DNA of 64,000 bases from Levilactobacillus angrenensis. GTDB lineage: Bacteria > Bacillota > Bacilli > Lactobacillales > Lactobacillaceae. The stretch is taken from the NCBI RefSeq assembly GCF_003946085.1, contig NZ_RHOB01000005.1, positions 57,716 to 121,715 on the forward strand, written 5' to 3'. The first letter of the stretch is position 1. Each line of letters opens with the position of its first letter. Of the stretch, positions 5,816 through 63,392 are shown piece after piece. Under the pieces are notes generated by a model. The model saw nothing but the letters and a program-made list of their open reading frames with translations. It did not search any database and was not told the origin of the DNA. Position numbers and translations under genes: made by a program.

Positions 5816-5827
5816 GCTAAAATCGGA

Positions 5828-5930
5828 CTGGCCGCCTGACCGTTCGCTAGCAATGAGTGAGAATGCTGGGCGCGCTGGGCCGAGCCACCGGGCGGTCTCA
5901 ACCCGCAACTTCATCCCCGCTAGTGAATAA
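5828..5930 (+). repeat. Partial copy of intergenic repeat R1
   Basis: The left third of R1 is recognisable: CTGGCCGCCTGACC, then the outer-arm segment GTTCGCTAGCAATGAGTG, a GAATGCTGGGCG block and the first hairpin with its GAGCC...CGGTCTC core. The second and third hairpins and the closing arm are missing or degenerate. It lies between the 6S-like RNA and the small membrane gene. Confidence 0.55.
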
Positions 5931-9752: not shown

Positions 9753-9880
9753 TTGCCTCTCCTCCTCTACGCTGTTAAAGCTAAAAAATATTGTAAACGA
9801 TTAAACATCAGGTGACAGCGCCTTCTAGACAGGCAGCTGATGCCATTGGATAAACCAGTTATTAGTGACCACCGCCACTG

Positions 9881-10072
9881 TAGCCGTGAGTTCGCTAGAG
9901 ATGAGTTCAGCCGTGGGAGTTCCCTTAGTGGCAAGGTTCACGCCGCTTAGGGAACTGACAACTTGAAGACACGATTTTCGGCTTCAAGTTGAGGGTCGAG
10001 ACCGCCCTGTGGCTCGACCCGGCGCCCACCGCATTCCAACTCATCTCTAGCGAACGGTAAGGTGGCCAGCGC
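9881..10072 (-). repeat. Structured intergenic repeat R1, full copy B
   Basis: Read on the minus strand, the element starts GCGCTGGCCACCTTACC. It then has outer arm GTTCGCTAGAGATGAGTT (10038-10055), whose exact complement returns at 9890-9907. Inside are three hairpins: 9993-10020 (GGGTCGAG/CTCGACCC), 9959-9991 (CAACTTGAAG/CTTCAAGTTG) and 9918-9956 (AGTTCCCTAAG/CTAAGGGAACT). The conserved blocks GCGGTGGGC and CCCACGGCTG can pair as a short second helix inside the outer arm. There is no ORF. Two other full copies lie at 32291-32470 and 35306-35500, with different but equally complementary stems. Confidence 0.85.
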
Positions 10073-10105
10073 AACCCATGTGTCACTAAAACCAGTGATC
10101 AAAGA

Positions 10106-13212: not shown

Positions 13213-13327
13213 GCGGGTCTCCTCCAATTGCTTTGATACTCCCATTATACCCGACTACGGCGGAAAACCCCAAAGAAGCGCCAGAAATGACTGAGTCGTT
13301 ACGCTATTTCCAGCTACCTCGTTCATC

Positions 13328-13390
13328 CTGGCCGCCTTACCGTCCGCTAACTATGAGTTGGAACGCAGTGGGCGGACGGTAGGCGGCCAG
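13328..13390 (+). repeat. R1 deletion derivative with terminal inverted repeats
   Basis: A 63-nt version of R1. It begins CTGGCCGCCTTACCGTCCGC and keeps the outer-arm start and the GGAACGCAGTGGGC block, then jumps to GCGGACGGTAGGCGGCCAG, the near-perfect inverse of its first 20 bases (one bulged base). The three inner hairpins are absent. This looks like a miniature element bounded by terminal inverted repeats, and it would form a very stable hairpin. Confidence 0.75.
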
Positions 13391-13445
13391 CTAAGACCAT
13401 TGTATCTGTGCTGAGCAAACGGCCCAAAGCTATAAAACGCAACAA

Positions 13446-16811: not shown

Positions 16812-16859
16812 TACTGGTGGTTACTGGGCGGCTACTGGGCGGCTACTGGGCGGCTACTG
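16812..16859. repeat. Short tandem repeat, 11-bp unit
   Basis: ACTGGGCGGCT occurs three times in tandem (16823-16855), preceded by a degenerate ACTGGTGGTT and followed by ACTGAG. It lies between mreB and murA in non-coding DNA. Confidence 0.7.
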
Positions 16860-16904
16860 AGTGTGCTTGCTAGTAACAGTTAGTTTAGCCACAAGTAGCG
16901 ACTG

Positions 16905-17013
16905 ATTTGACAACTAGTCCTTAATTAAGACAAGGTTGCTGATAACCACTAACCCGCCGGAGGCAGGTCCTAGTTTCACTAATTTTAGTGGACAGAACAC
17001 TGCCATTCCGGGA
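16905..17013 (-). repeat. Intergenic repeat R2, copy a
   Basis: On the minus strand: TCCCGGAATGGCAGTGTTCTG region, then hairpin CACTA-AAAT-TAGTG (16977-16990), CCTGCCTCCGGCGGG, TTATCAGCAA and GACTAGTTGTC. The same blocks recur in order at 34951-35254, and the first half recurs at 36847-36935. No ORF. Confidence 0.65.
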
Positions 17014-17073
17014 ACTACCGCGCCAAGGCTACTTTCTTTAGCCACATTGCTCAAAGCGTTTGCGGGGACAAGA

Positions 17074-32154: not shown

Positions 32155-32290
32155 GTTGCTCCCACCTTTTTGACAGTTTCTATCTATTATAGCCGATTAC
32201 GCTAGAAAATTCGACTGTCGCGGCCAATTGGTGATAGATTTCTTCCACGAAACCGTTACCAACTGGATGGTCACTGACTCGTTGCGGAAA

Positions 32291-32470
32291 TGGACCGCCT
32301 TACCGTTCGCGAAATAGGCGCTGGAACGCGGTGGGCAGGACCGGCCTGAGCCAAAGTACGGTCTCAGGCCTCGCTGGGAACCGAACCCCGCGTTTCCCAG
32401 ACGCCATTTTCTAAGCAGAACACTTAGAAAATCCCACGGCTGAGCGCCTATTTCGCTTCACTCTCGGCTA
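32291..32470 (+). repeat. Structured intergenic repeat R1, full copy D
   Basis: Plus-strand element. After GGACCGCCTTACCGTTC comes outer arm GCGAAATAGGCGCT (32309-32322), perfectly complementary to AGCGCCTATTTCGC (32443-32456). Three inner hairpins follow: 32343-32370 (GGCCTGAG/CTCAGGCC), 32374-32400 (CTGGGAA/TTCCCAG) and 32406-32432 (ATTTTCTAAG/CTTAGAAAAT). Shared blocks GGAACGCGGTGGGC, GAGCC...CGGTCTC, CCGAA...CGCGT, CCCACGGCTG and CTCTCGGCTAC match copies B and C, although every stem sequence differs. Confidence 0.88.
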
Positions 32471-32790
32471 CATCAGTCTTTGCCAAACCCAATCACTCGG
32501 CCCGTAGGCATCAGTTTGCTCGACCATAGTTACCTGATAATCTCAGCCCATGTCATTATCAACCATAGCGTGACCAGTAAGCCATGGTGCAACGCCCCAG
32601 ACTTAAGACCCAGTCGGTTAGTTGCTGACAATGTTCCACGTAGACAAGAGTCCGCCAGCCCCACCCAACTTGTCAGCTAACCAGCCCAACTCCTTGCGAT
32701 TTGGGAAAGTTCAAGCAGAGTGCTCCCTTTCAGGCGGAAAAAATGCTAAAATTAAGGCTTGAATATTAAGGAAACCGACATTAAAAAATC
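32471..32790. other. Gene-free region upstream of murT
   Basis: No gene is supported in this stretch; a 66-codon frame lacks a ribosome site. An extended -10 TGCTAAAAT at about 32744-32752 is the best candidate for the murT promoter; its -35 box is poor. Confidence 0.45.
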
Positions 32791-34165: not shown

Positions 34166-34866
34166 GTTACGAATTAAACGTCGCCCACCTGTACGGCGAC
34201 TTGATGAACACTTACGGTGACGTTGGTAATATTTTGGCGTTGAACTACTATGCTAAGCAAATGGATGTCACCTTAAACGTCAAGGTAGTCAGCCTGGAGG
34301 AAGACTTTCACGCCGCCGACTACGATTTGGCTTTCTTCGGCGGTGGCCAAGACTTTGAACAGACTATCGTATCCCAGGATATCCAAACCAAGAAGGCCGA
34401 ACTGATCAAATTCATTGAATCTGACGGTCCCCTGTTGGCTATCTGTGGTGGTTTCCAATTACTGGGCCATTACTACATCGGCGCGGACGGCGAAAAGTTG
34501 CCGGGTATCGGTGCGTTGGACCACTACACACTGGCTCAAGACCACAACCGCTTCATCGGTGACATCGTCATCAAGAACCAAGAGACCGGCGAAACCTACC
34601 ACGGATTTGAAAACCATCAAGGGTTGACCTACCTGGGCAAGGGCGAACGGCCCCTGGGTAACGTCGTTTCTGGTAAAGGCAACAACGGCGAAGATGGCAC
34701 GGAAGGTGCTATTTACAAGAACGTCTACTGTTCTTACTTCCACGGCCCAATTTTGACGCGTAACGGCGACATCGCCAAGCACCTACTGGTGGCCGCTTTG
34801 AAGCGTAAATATCCGGACGCCGACTTCAGCCAACAAGAAGCCCTGCCGATTCCGGCAACGTTCTAG
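34162..34866 (+). CDS. gatD: Lipid II isoglutaminyl synthase, glutaminase subunit GatD
   Basis: Class I glutamine amidotransferase-like (CobB/CobQ-type) subunit of 234 residues. The nucleophile is Cys in PLLAICGGFQLLGHYY (about residue 94) and the conserved His lies in CSYFHGPIL near residue 195. It supplies ammonia to MurT. Start ATG overlaps the murT stop, indicating coupled translation. Confidence 0.95.
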   Translation: MSYELNVAHLYGDLMNTYGDVGNILALNYYAKQMDVTLNVKVVSLEEDFHAADYDLAFFGGGQDFEQTIVSQDIQTKKAELIKFIESDGPLLAICGGFQLLGHYYIGADGEKLPGIGALDHYTLAQDHNRFIGDIVIKNQETGETYHGFENHQGLTYLGKGERPLGNVVSGKGNNGEDGTEGAIYKNVYCSYFHGPILTRNGDIAKHLLVAALKRKYPDADFSQQEALPIPATF

Positions 34867-34893
34867 CCAAACTGCACCTATTCTGAAAACAAA

Positions 34894-34948
34894 AGAAGTT
34901 CCCATCGCAATGGTCAAGTAGACATTTGCGGTGGGAACTTTTATTTTC
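34894..34948 (+). terminator. Terminator of murT-gatD
   Basis: AAGTTCCCATCGCAATG and CATTTGCGGTGGGAACTT form a long imperfect stem, followed by TTATTTT. Confidence 0.85.
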
Positions 34949-34950
34949 TA

Positions 34951-35254
34951 AAGGTTGAAAGTTGAATTAATGTCTTGACTCCCGAAACGACAGCGTTTTG
35001 TCCACCAGAACTAGTGAAACCCGGGCCTGCGTCAGCCAGGGTTCCGCCTGCTCTGGGGAACACCTCCAGCCTGAGAAACGGTCTTCCGGTTCGCTTGAAA
35101 GCCTGGCCAAAACCGCCAGTCTCCCAAGTCGCCCCACGCTGTAGGCTGAGACAAAACCTCAGCCAACCCCGTCGTCACAGCTGGCTCCACCCTGGCTGCC
35201 TCCGGCGGGGTTGGCGATTATCAGCAAGATGGCGTTAGTTAAAGACTAGTTGCC
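34951..35254 (+). repeat. Intergenic repeat R2, long copy b
   Basis: Contains, in order, GTTGAATTAAT, CTCCCGAAACGACAGCGTT, TTGTCCACCAGAACTAGTG, GGGCCTGCGTCAGCCAGGGT, then about 120 nt of additional hairpin-forming sequence (for example GGCTGAG/CTCAGCC), and finally GCTGCCTCCGGCGGG, TTATCAGCAAG and GACTAGTTGCC. Copies a and c share these blocks. No gene is present. It is followed closely by an R1 copy. Confidence 0.65.
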
Positions 35255-35305
35255 AAAACAGCTGCTACCTGGGGCTAAGCCGACTTTTACTGGCAAGCAC
35301 TTCTG

Positions 35306-35500
35306 TAGCCGAGAGTCCGCCAACTATGGGTTCAGCCGTGGGAGTTGCCTTAGTGGCATGGGGTTCATGCCGCTTAGGCAACTGGCGTCTTTGAGACGCG
35401 GGCTTTCGGCTCAAAGCGAGGCCGAGACCGTCCCTCAGGCTCGGTCCGGTCCGCCCACCGCGTTCCAACCCATAGTTGGCGGACGGTAGGCGGCCAGCGC
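35306..35500 (-). repeat. Structured intergenic repeat R1, full copy C
   Basis: Minus-strand element. Outer arm GTCCGCCAACTATGGGTT (read at 35467-35484) is exactly complementary to the arm at 35315-35332. Hairpins lie at 35422-35444 (CCGAG/CTCGG), 35389-35416 (CTTTGAG/CTCAAAG) and 35343-35383 (AGTTGCCTAAG/CTAAGGCAACT). It shares all loop and junction blocks with copies B and D. The outer-arm pairs differ from copy B at several positions, with both partners changed together. Confidence 0.88.
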
Positions 35501-35593
35501 AAACTACGAAGCTGTAAACGACTAATTCTTAAGCCATGAGTCGCGTGGTGACAATGCTTCTAGCTGATTTTCATCTTTCAACCTTCAGTTATT

Positions 35594-36631
35594 TTACGAA
35601 AAATCATGATTGGCGTAGCGACTCTTCTCCGCCAGATACGTGCCAATGACCGCGTTACGCTGGTCTAGGTACGGTTCGTTAGGCGCTACGGGATGGACGC
35701 GGTTCGTCAAGAAGACCATCGCTTGCTGGGCTGCCTGGTCGATAACCAAATACGTACCGGTAAAGCCGGAATGCCAGATGACCCGATGAGCTTGCGGCCA
35801 CTGCGTTGCGGTCAGCGCCCAGCCTAATGAACGGCCTGCCCGACCATCCGGTGTCCAGTCGTTGGTTAGCTGATTGACATAGCGCGGCGGCAGCACGGCG
35901 GGAACCGTTTCCGGATGACAGTATGCCTGACAGAACCGGATCAGGTCGTCGATGGTGCTGAACAATCCCGCGGACCCGCATCGGCGCTGCAATACGTAGC
36001 CCTTGGGATCATGGACTTCGCCGCGAACCAGCCCTCGCGTCACGGTCACCGCCGTAGGGATACAGGCCGCCGGATCACTGGGGGTAAACGTACTGTGGGT
36101 CATCCCCAGTGGCGTCAACACGCGCTGTTGCACGGCCGCCTGAATCGGTTCGCCCAAGATTTGTTCAACGATCCAGCCCAGGAAAATGTAGTTGACGTCA
36201 GCGTAGACCATTTTTCGTCCAAAGGTCGGTCCCACGTGCAAATGCAACAGAGCGTGGGTCAACGCCGGGGCGTCCAGCTGGTTGCGGTTGGGGATGTAGC
36301 CCGTAATGCCTGACGTGTGGGTGAGTAGATGCCGTACCGTTACCCGTTTATCCTGCCACTCCGGCAAGTAGTCGTGAACCCGGTCGGTCAACCGTAATCG
36401 GCCCGTGGCCAATAGCTGTAAGACCACACTCAACGTTCCCACGACTTTGGTCAGCGAGGCCACATCGTACAGCATTCCCGGCCGCAGTGGTTCCGTATGG
36501 GGCACAATGGCGGCGACACCATACTGTCCCGTTTCCACCCGGTCGCCGTCGATCAAAGCAAAGCTCACCCCGGGTACCACTTTTTCTGCGACCAGCCGCT
36601 TGAGGGCCGCTTTCGTTTCTACATACGCCAT
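35594..36631 (-). CDS. Serine hydrolase of the beta-lactamase class C family
   Basis: Protein of 345 residues with the penicillin-binding fold of class C beta-lactamases and related esterases. The SxxK motif is SLTK (about residue 60), followed by the YxN-like YADVNY around 145, and the third motif is HSGFTG near residue 292. No signal peptide is visible, so it is probably cytoplasmic; substrates of this family include esters and peptides, and true beta-lactamase activity cannot be assumed. Start ATG 36631 has AGAGGTG upstream. Confidence 0.85.
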   Translation of the reverse strand: MAYVETKAALKRLVAEKVVPGVSFALIDGDRVETGQYGVAAIVPHTEPLRPGMLYDVASLTKVVGTLSVVLQLLATGRLRLTDRVHDYLPEWQDKRVTVRHLLTHTSGITGYIPNRNQLDAPALTHALLHLHVGPTFGRKMVYADVNYIFLGWIVEQILGEPIQAAVQQRVLTPLGMTHSTFTPSDPAACIPTAVTVTRGLVRGEVHDPKGYVLQRRCGSAGLFSTIDDLIRFCQAYCHPETVPAVLPPRYVNQLTNDWTPDGRAGRSLGWALTATQWPQAHRVIWHSGFTGTYLVIDQAAQQAMVFLTNRVHPVAPNEPYLDQRNAVIGTYLAEKSRYANHDFS

Positions 36632-36846: not shown

Positions 36847-36935
36847 AGGGAATCCTGGTTGACGTAGGCCCTGCTTTCGCTAGCTTTAGCGGACAAACCA
36901 CTGGCGCTCCGTGAGGCAACGTATTAATTCAGCTT
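36847..36935 (-). repeat. Intergenic repeat R2, copy c
   Basis: Minus-strand blocks GCTGAATTAATACG, CTCACGGAGCGCCAGTGG, TTTGTCCGCTAAAGCTAGCG, GGGCCTACGTCAACCAGGAT align with copy b. The hairpin CGCTA-AAGC-TAGCG has a G-C pair where copy a has A-T. Confidence 0.6.
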
Positions 36936-37005
36936 AGTATCTTTAGCTGGCAGCCAGTAAAGTAACGGTAAGGCGGACGCTTTCACCCAAAGCCGGCGCA
37001 AAAAA

Positions 37006-48236: not shown

Positions 48237-48242
48237 CACTTA

Positions 48243-48316
48243 TCACCCGCACGGGGCTCGAACCCGTAACTCCGCCTTGAGAGGGCGACGTCTTAAACCA
48301 GTTTGACCAGCGGGCA
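48243..48316 (-). tRNA. tRNA-Glu (anticodon CTC)
   Basis: Minus-strand cloverleaf: acceptor TGCCCGC/GCGGGTG, D stem GTC/GAC, anticodon stem TCGCC/GGCGG with loop CTCTCAA (anticodon CTC), T arm ACGGG-TTCGAGC-CCCGT, discriminator A, no encoded CCA. The body strongly resembles lactobacillar tRNA-Glu. The first two acceptor pairs are U-G and G-U rather than Watson-Crick, which is unusual and raises the chance of a diverged or weakened tRNA. A promoter and terminator frame it as a single unit. Confidence 0.75.
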
Positions 48317-48338
48317 ATACTATCAACTAGCAGTATCT

Positions 48339-48367
48339 AATTTACGCTATTCTCCTAAAATTGTCAA
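48339..48367 (-). promoter_or_regulatory. Promoter of tRNA-Glu
   Basis: TTGACA (48362-48367), 17 nt, TAAATT (48339-48344) on the minus strand; transcription would start about 15 nt before the tRNA. Confidence 0.65.
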
Positions 48368-48437
48368 TCCTTGAATGAATAAATTTACACAGAAATGGGA
48401 ATTCATACAGGAATTCGTCTTTTTTCGGCAAAATCGG

Positions 48438-48466
48438 TTGACACCAAAAGCGGAACAAGTTACTAT
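48438..48466 (+). promoter_or_regulatory. Promoter of tRNA-Gln
   Basis: TTGACA (48438-48443), 17 nt, TACTAT (48461-48466), about 30 nt before the tRNA. Confidence 0.7.
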
Positions 48467-48498
48467 TAAATAGTTGTTTACGCAACGTGTAACCTTAT

Positions 48499-48571
48499 TG
48501 GGTATTCGCCAAATTGGTAAGGCAGCGGACTCTGAATCCGTAATTTACTGGTTCGAGCCCAGTATACCCAA
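48499..48571 (+). tRNA. tRNA-Gln (anticodon CTG)
   Basis: Cloverleaf with acceptor TGGGTAT/ATACCCA, anticodon stem GCGGA/TCCGT and loop CTCTGAA (anticodon CTG), T arm ACTGG-TTCGAGC-CCAGT, discriminator A, no encoded CCA. An integrase gene points at its 3' end from 130 bp away, so the tRNA is a likely integration target. Confidence 0.9.
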
Positions 48572-48584
48572 TCACAGAGTTTAA

Positions 48585-63023: not shown

Positions 63024-63392
63024 GGGGCTGTTCTGGATTCGACTGGTATGGGTTGAAGCTTGACTGCGCGTCGTAGCGGCATCTACGTAAAAAGGTCCAG
63101 TTTATTAATAACTGCAAACAATAATAAAACTTCTTACGCTTTAGCTGCTTAATAGGCGCTTAACGTAGATCCTCCTAGGCTTGCCCGCGGTCTAGATCTG
63201 GGTCCTAACTTTAACGGGCTTACGCTAACGACTCCCACCTGAAGTACGTTAGAAGAGATGAATCAGGTTAGCTGAGTATGTGGGCCCTGACAGGCGGCAA
63301 GTTATTCAGTGAAACTTTAAATAGTCTGCCTATGCGTGTAGACGTTGAGTTGGCAATATGCTAGGACGCGGGTTCGATCCCCGCCAGCTCCA
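63024..63392 (+). ncRNA. ssrA: Transfer-messenger RNA
   Basis: The 5' end GGGGCTGTTCTGGATTCGAC and 3' end GGTTCGATCCCCGCCAGCTCCA-like sequence pair into the tRNA-like domain (GGGGCTG with CAGCTCC). The tag frame starts GCA at 63114 and reads ANNNKTSYALAA before TAA at 63150-63152; it ends YALAA, the normal degradation tag of lactobacilli, with the alanine from the charged tmRNA preceding it. The 3' CCA is not encoded. It rescues stalled ribosomes with SmpB. Confidence 0.96.

Follow-up and report, generated by a model that had tools for sequence, protein, structure and literature searches.

A cloverleaf-forming intergenic repeat as the probable structured end module of a miniature, gene-less and apparently mobile DNA family in Levilactobacillus

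What kind of element is an intergenic repeat whose stems differ in sequence from copy to copy and nevertheless keep their pairing? The question is raised by R1, a cloverleaf of about 180 nt with three full copies in the 64-kb window (the whole stretch of DNA that was analysed). The preliminary description had placed three copies there, with exactly complementary outer arms, constant motifs between them and compensatory changes in the helices, and had taken these changes to imply selection on RNA or single-stranded DNA structure. It offered three identities, namely a non-coding RNA, a non-autonomous mobile element moved by a REP/IS200-like transposase, or a structured mRNA tail, and suggested a covariance-model search, a comparison with Rfam and a comparison of empty orthologous sites as checks. 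Our analysis indicates that R1 probably serves as a structured end module in a Levilactobacillus family of miniature, gene-less and apparently mobile DNA elements. Both the sequence and the covariance-model matches find the three copies where they had been placed:

9881-10060, minus strand: R1 copy 1, solo (covariance model 174.9 bits, E 1.8e-40)
32300-32470, plus strand: R1 copy 2, its conserved lead running from 32291 (covariance model 155.8 bits, E 6.9e-36)
32309-32322, plus strand: 5' arm of the outer helix P1 of copy 2, GCGAAATAGGCGCT, exact complement of 32443-32456
32443-32456, plus strand: 3' arm of the outer helix P1 of copy 2, AGCGCCTATTTCGC, read from the sequence
35306-35489, minus strand: R1 copy 3, forming the R1 part of a complete 641-bp element (covariance model 175.1 bits, E 1.6e-40)

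The covariance model recovered all three copies at 156-175 bits, and the next-best match in the window reached an E value of only 0.35. The model was built from 40 diverse copies, with window copies 1 and 2 included and copy 3 excluded, so the matches of copies 1 and 2 are partly by construction. The outer arms of all three copies are indeed exact complements, and in place of motifs described as constant copy 1 carries GGAATGCGGTGGGC and CTCACGGCTACA. The strands had gone unmentioned: copies 1 and 3 are minus-strand, copy 2 is plus-strand. The boundaries given for copy 3 were too narrow, because its R1 belongs to an element of 641 bp that spans 34948-35588. Folded singly as single-stranded DNA, on the strand complementary to that of the preliminary description, the copies gave z-scores of -6.9 (copy 2), -7.9 (copy 3) and -9.2 (copy 1) with 200 shuffles each. 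Elsewhere in the window, at 63024-63392 and 48242-48573, are a tmRNA with the tag ANNNKTSYALAA and two tRNA genes, for Glu and Gln.

The R1 consensus was derived from 197 distinct copies among 244 profile hits, partial and duplicate hits having been dropped; the alignments took in 20 loci (L111-L130) whatever their source organism. Its fold comprises a short GCC/GGC pairing and the outer helix P1, which is about 17 bp long; an internal loop containing GGAACG and CGGCTG; the inner helix GTGGG/CCCAC; and three hairpins, in whose loops the motifs AGCC..GCGGTCT and CCGAA..CGYGT are conserved. In a 40-copy alignment, 97.0% of 1868 cells were paired, and two-sided changes occurred in 31 of the 47 consensus pairs. 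These changes amounted to 315 cells, as against 89.8 in column-shuffled alignments and at most 50 with the partner slid, and the covariation score was 0.432 as against 0.132 after shuffling. Covariation in the helices exceeds both controls. The proposal that selection acts on a structure of RNA or single-stranded DNA is upheld, and of the two DNA is favoured. Rfam yielded no known RNA family for R1: there was no match at gathering score, either here or at four loci in other genomes, and an E-value scan of 32200-32600 returned three sub-threshold families, all unrelated.

Stem mismatches persist in sublineages (e.g., C-T in 25/197 and T-C in 42/197 copies), and the orthologous copy 2 differs in P1 between the window's genome and L. 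brevis CD0817 (G003) by two compensated and two broken pairs, both broken pairs being of the A.C type, so that this comparison gives mixed support. At the base of P1, a near-invariant G faces T in 191 of 197 copies (R1 columns 37/166) and in 41 of 41 copies of genome G035 (columns 28/125); this could reflect a fixed G.T pair, or the two bases may belong to the internal loop. Across the same 41 copies of G035, outer P1 takes many letter pairs with few mismatches (position 11/142: GC 28, AT 8, CG 3, TA 2) and hairpin 3 is likewise variable but paired, while GGCTGGAACGCCGTGGGC and TTCACGGCTGAGCC are almost unchanged, a constancy which is partly a selection artefact because the copies were chosen by patterns allowing at most 3 mismatches in these two motifs. 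At the G035 loci L255-L294, the outermost 5-8 bp of P1 are hypervariable and mostly complementary in otherwise similar copies, and the cause may be selection, copying of one arm from the other, or a sequence gained at insertion.

R1 turned out to be half of a unit. Comparison of the flanks of 36 copies from the window's genome, 14 of them aligned, separated solo copies from copies inside a longer repeat (about 640 bp). In a profile search the right half of this repeat, R2, matched R1 on the opposite strand. R2 is a diverged homologue of R1, lying about 90 nt off in inverted orientation. A profile seeded with R2 drifted into R1 upon iteration (three rounds), and the drifted profile was used only as evidence of homology; the R2 set itself comprised 96 copies from a single competitively scored pass, from which partial hits and hits scoring higher with R1 were dropped. 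On their own, these 96 copies gave a similar branched consensus fold. The repeat, which we call class B, is complete around copy 3 and is present as remnants elsewhere in the window:

34948-35588, minus strand: complete class B element, MITE-like, 641 bp, in the order terminal inverted repeat (TIR), R1, spacer, inverted R2, TIR (profile positions 2-639 of 640, E 1.9e-221)
35024-35216, plus strand: R2 module of the copy-3 element, from cross-strand profile matches, with coordinates from element positions 373-565
34948-34961, plus strand: terminal inverted repeat CTAAAGGTTGAAAG, read from the sequence
35575-35588, minus strand: terminal inverted repeat CTGAAGGTTGAAAG, from the sequence and a genome pattern search
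34941-34947, plus strand: target site duplication TTATTTT, first copy, exact 7 bp (element L131)
35589-35595, plus strand: target site duplication TTATTTT, second copy, exact 7 bp (element L131)
16851-17036, plus strand: deleted class B remnant, profile positions 275-389 joined to 557-631
36849-36944, plus strand: class B right-end remnant, profile positions 541-638
13305-13378, plus strand: R1 left-half remnant, profile positions 69-141, with a weak model match at 13337-13418 (E 0.35)
5823-5903, plus strand: weak R1 left-half remnant, profile positions 87-169 (E 6e-5)

Alongside copy 1, neither R2 nor a terminal repeat was recognised, and the class B profile matched there at 9833-10082 only (profile positions 79-328). 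The 14-bp TIR CTGAAGGTTGAAAG, allowing at most one mismatch, had 101 hits in the window's genome as against 1 for the reversed control, and the terminal repeat of L. brevis CD0817, CTRAAGGTTRMAAG, had 25 hits as against 0. The units of G035 are likewise composed of R1, a spacer and an inverted R2; they are mostly 398-591 bp long and bounded by CGCCTTACCGG and CCGGTAAGGCG, with TIRs visible and no target duplication obvious by eye. A right end was recognisable for 31 of 50 R1 cores of G035, a count that includes some chance matches or single units counted from both sides. When the window's genome (G000), G003 and G035 were compared, the modules were recognisably common to all and the outermost terminal repeats differed. 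The 22 elements of the window's genome that were examined for target duplications span 277-644 bp and are thus too short for a transposase gene of the usual size. We also observed six TIR elements of 277-468 bp (L165, L166, L167, L168, L169, L170) without R1 and/or R2 sequence, which keep both TIRs and the duplication with at most one mismatch; in some of them, the deletion seems to have fused R1 and R2 at corresponding points.

Evidence of movement as DNA comes from the junctions of these elements. In the TIR subfamily of the window's genome, 20 of the 22 elements that had both ends available were flanked by flush target duplications, 7 bp or longer and differing at one position at most, as against 9 of 462 control pairings between the flanks of different elements. 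Exact flush direct repeats of 7-9 bp were found at 13 of the 22, the control giving 2/462 (at least 6 bp). An empty orthologous site was found for one element (L010) in L. brevis CD0817, where a diverged intergenic stretch aligns across the joint at 70% identity. The surroundings of copy 2 vary between genomes as well:

32222-32690, no strand assigned: intergenic stretch with copy 2, 468 bp here

Among the 28 other genomes, this gap was resolved in 21 and not in 7; it measured 11-161 bp in 16 of the 21 and 688-1182 bp in 5, and all five long gaps carry modules. The gap of copy 3 (34865-35580) and its counterpart in G003 (L199-L202 joined, 35702-36419) each hold an R1-R2 unit adjoining a terminator-like hairpin, in opposite orientation and with 456 of 636 positions identical (72%). 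These two units are probably independent insertions at one spot; we rejected a single insertion that was later inverted, on the grounds of this identity as against 83-90% in the flanks. Taken together, the TIRs, the target duplications, the empty site and the many dispersed copies support the non-autonomous mobile element of the preliminary description. The REP/IS200-like mover that had been attached to it is not supported, PF01797 having no match in the window's genome and the elements examined having duplications.

The family is abundant and, in our samples, largely confined to the genus. The window's genome (2.80 Mb) holds at least 150 model matches, that is, all 150 candidates scored of 1224, with one place (C5:22053) counted on both strands. 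In the genus sample, 28 of 29 genomes matched at E 1e-4 and G034 had none; in G012, all 94 scored candidates matched R1. A DNA search called six of 17 other genus genomes empty, and the model finds 8-58 matches in each of the six. The modules measure 150-190 nt across subfamilies, those of G035 and G037 being about 150 nt and the G035 consensus having two hairpins. Order-wide, in a sample of 80 genomes counting the window's own, only one of the 79 others (G053, from another family of the order) matched, with three weak hits (L220, L222, L224; E 2.9e-5 to 0.004). These show an outer stem, a hairpin GAGCCGAAGAACGTGTCTC (in L222) very like hairpin 2 of R1, and CATGGCTAC near the end, and a distant relative outside the genus is possible. 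As only the best candidates were scored (150 in the window's genome, 94 per genus genome, and 34 with stricter filters per order genome), the copy numbers are lower bounds and the absences are soft. Plasmid and phage records had no match to a 691-bp query with the class B element at E 1e-5. DNA-pattern hits in 17 loci of other organisms (among 80 listed of 100) and in two viral contigs were set aside as chance-like, none having a model match at E 0.01.

Within genomes the copies are mainly intergenic. On gene calls that are longest-ORF guesses, of the 135 copies with genes on both sides, 122 stay clear of called ORFs or overlap them by 100 bp at most; convergent gaps account for 32 of 122 copies as against 105 of 685 gaps, and the copies between tandem genes lie evenly on the same strand (33) and the opposite strand (36). 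In a 67-kb stretch of L. brevis compared with the window, the R1 family fills many intergenic gaps. A literature search, with coverage of subscription papers mostly missing, found no title or abstract on the R1/R2 family among the entries listed.

The search for a mobilising enzyme covered, at the level of transposase families, Y1 (PF01797) only, and gave 0 matches in the window's genome and in G012. Y1 transposases are patchy in the genus (20 of 29 genomes), being absent from the R1-rich G000 and G012 and present in the R1-less G034. By eye, no transposase was recognised in the first 60 residues of the 25 largest ORF clusters near copies. Inward-facing TIR pairs at most 5 kb apart, inspected by eye among 100 listed of 101 hits in G000 and 25 in G003, included none with a transposase, and autonomous copies whose terminal repeats have more mismatches would be missed by this search. 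The two larger pairs of G000 enclose ordinary genes, as judged from translations read by eye: L163 (G000:C34:158905-160966, 2.1 kb apart) holds PAP2-like and methyltransferase-like genes, and L164 (G000:C61:64627-68545, 3.9 kb apart) holds a two-component pair and others. Both are most likely parts of separate damaged elements.

Whether the conserved structure is formed by DNA or RNA can be approached through pair statistics. We counted every pair of each consensus fold on the strand of the preliminary description. R1 had 537 G.T and 321 A.C in 12537 cells, R2 had 91 and 168 in 5724, and the 47-pair set had 19 and 21 in 1868; RNase P from 28 of the 29 genus genomes (leaving out the partial match L323) had 493 and 6 in 3284. 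The G.T share was hence 4.3% in R1 and 1.6% in R2 as against 15.0% in RNase P, a control which is not like for like, all its sequences being functional and 91% identical and the R1 copies being 68% identical and partly decayed. Position by position, G.T prevailed over all other pairs at 2 of 65 in R1, 0 of 61 in R2, 0 of 47 in the 47-pair set and 17 of 118 in RNase P. Over the whole R1 fold G.T does outnumber A.C, which weighs against the DNA reading; of these 537 G.T pairs, 379 are concentrated in just four places, namely two in hairpin 1 and two at the foot of P1, where one is the near-invariant G-T. At pairs that are mostly Watson-Crick, G.T and A.C numbered 152 and 237 in R1, 52 and 129 in R2, and 24 and 0 in RNase P, so that G.T is scarce there in RNase P too. 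A non-coding RNA on this strand, as proposed earlier, is thus not supported, G.T failing to exceed A.C in R2, in the 47-pair set and in the mostly Watson-Crick pairs of R1.

The excess of A.C has the same outward-facing sense in R1 and R2 although the modules are inverted. When counted by clusters, it held in R2 at four thresholds (p at most 3.1e-4) and in R1 at three of four, with p 0.15 at the coarsest (13 clusters); it was weak in G035 (p 0.05-0.79), and p was 0.064 in the 40-copy set. The counts therefore give no general G.U excess on the strand of the preliminary description and a modest one on its complement. The scarcity of G.T in the stems leans towards DNA structure over RNA, and we read the pair statistics as pointing to one DNA strand that folds at either end of the unit, with an RNA of that strand as the main rival.

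The best explanation of these observations, which we consider probable, is that R1 and R2 are the ends of gene-less mobile elements which a DDE-type enzyme acting in trans would read as folded cloverleaf DNA. The unit is R1, a spacer and an inverted R2, to which one subfamily in the window's genome adds 14-bp TIRs and 7-9-bp target duplications; in this model, the DDE-type transposase would be encoded elsewhere. Recognition of each end would depend on one strand adopting the cloverleaf, whether in single-stranded DNA or in a cruciform; the likelier folding strand would be 5'-GTAGCCG...CGGTAAGGCG-3', whose 3' end points outward to the terminus at either end of the element. Because the protein would contact the constant bases of loops and junctions, many stem letters would be free provided they pair. 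Solo R1 copies, of which there are some, may be remnants of R1-R2 units.

A bolder form of this model, which we put forward tentatively and hold to be a good deal less probable, is that of genus-wide mobile DNA whose ends are recognised by shape and not by sequence, a transposase or a host enzyme reading the cloverleaf of the 3'-outward strand and contacting only the constant loop bases. If true, covarying RNA would have its counterpart at the level of DNA, and the hairpin-ended termini of viruses an analogue in bacteria; the three weak matches in G053 hint that the shape-read class is possibly wider than the genus. Helix covariation is usually taken as a sign of functional RNA; here, strong covariation goes together with few G.U pairs and, in a subfamily, with the marks of DNA transposition. 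The family could mislead annotation and screens for non-coding RNA. It lends itself to testing whether pair statistics can distinguish RNA structure from DNA structure, and whether DNA shape can be read by a transposase.

Among the competing explanations, a non-coding RNA encoded by R1/R2 on the complement strand, which would serve the element or the host, for instance by guiding or regulating its transposase, and whose fold would be what is selected, comes closest. The strong covariation, the constant loops and the recurrence of the loop motifs in the subfamilies read would all be expected of it, and since A.C on one strand is G.U on the other, the A.C excess fits a structured complement strand. 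Nevertheless, G.U on the complement makes up just 2.6% of cells in R1 and 2.9% in R2, far from the share in RNase P; R1 and R2 being inverted, a single transcript cannot hold both in the favoured strand; and the lack of an Rfam family and the even orientation between tandem genes point the same way. We therefore regard RNA from the complement strand as less likely than folded DNA, and as rather unlikely in itself.

Lower still stands the explanation that these are ordinary mobile repeats in which template switching and quasi-palindrome correction, by which one arm is rewritten from the other, keep the arms paired in place of selection. Such correction would accord with the preponderance of two-sided changes and few intermediates, with the outer 5-8 bp of P1 in the 41 copies of G035, variable yet mostly complementary, and with the few G.T pairs. 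The loop and junction motifs are kept, however, while the arms vary between subfamilies, and the model finds diverged subfamilies by structure, for which correction alone is insufficient; the stem mismatches that persist in sublineages are also at odds with it. On balance we think it improbable.

More doubtful again, and in our judgement very unlikely, is the reading of R1 as a REP/REPIN-like palindrome that a Y1 transposase (RAYT or IS200-like) moves in the form of single-stranded DNA. The inverted doublets, the many intergenic copies and the GTAG with which the complement strand begins at its 5' end recall such elements, and REPINs are built as inverted doublets, for which a 'clover' alternative fold has been proposed (PMC3116915). 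Against it, PF01797 is unmatched in the window's genome and in the R1-rich G012 and present in the R1-less G034, target duplications of 7-9 bp occur, and modules of 150-190 nt contrast with the 20-40 bp given for REP modules in PMC3733652. Least credible of all is a 3'-UTR or terminator-like RNA structure serving neighbouring genes, which the position of most copies clear of ORFs and their share of convergent gaps would suit, but which the even tandem orientation (which likewise leaves the structured mRNA tail proposed earlier unsupported), the short copy-2 gap in most of the resolved genomes and the target duplications speak against.

Set beside known systems, the R1-R2 elements resemble several and coincide with none of those compared. 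IS200/IS605 elements rely on a Y1 enzyme and transpose without target duplication; with Y1 unmatched in the window's genome and target duplications present in the elements examined, the R1-R2 elements do not class as their derivatives. The bcr1 repeats of the Bacillus cereus group, like R1, lie between genes in Firmicutes; they measure about 155 bp, have a conserved secondary structure and are considered mobile, and they are not known to include an inverted paired module with TIRs. Parvovirus-type and Streptomyces-type terminal palindromes are long multibranch hairpin modules, inverted, at both ends. This likeness is an analogy only, as R1 elements have neither a replication protein nor a linear replicon, and copy 3 lies inside TIRs with a target duplication. 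MITEs share with the R1-R2 elements the short length without a transposase gene, the TIRs, the target duplications, the many dispersed copies and the internally deleted derivatives. Class B in particular has the size (below about 1 kb without transposase), TIRs and target duplications of MITEs, no parent element having been found for it among the terminal-repeat pairs inspected, and the R1-R2 elements differ from MITEs in carrying at each end a cloverleaf module of 150-190 nt kept by two-sided changes. REPIN/REP sequences with RAYT (PMC3116915, PMC3733652) are similar in their inverted palindromic doublets, in singles that may be remnants, in many intergenic copies and in the variation of stem letters. 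R1/R2 modules are several times larger than those and multibranch, have target duplications, lie in the window's case in a genome with no Y1 gene and contain few G.T pairs, which in GTAG repeats are often observed in stems, according to PMC3733652. MITEs and REPINs are the nearest kinds to the R1/R2 family.
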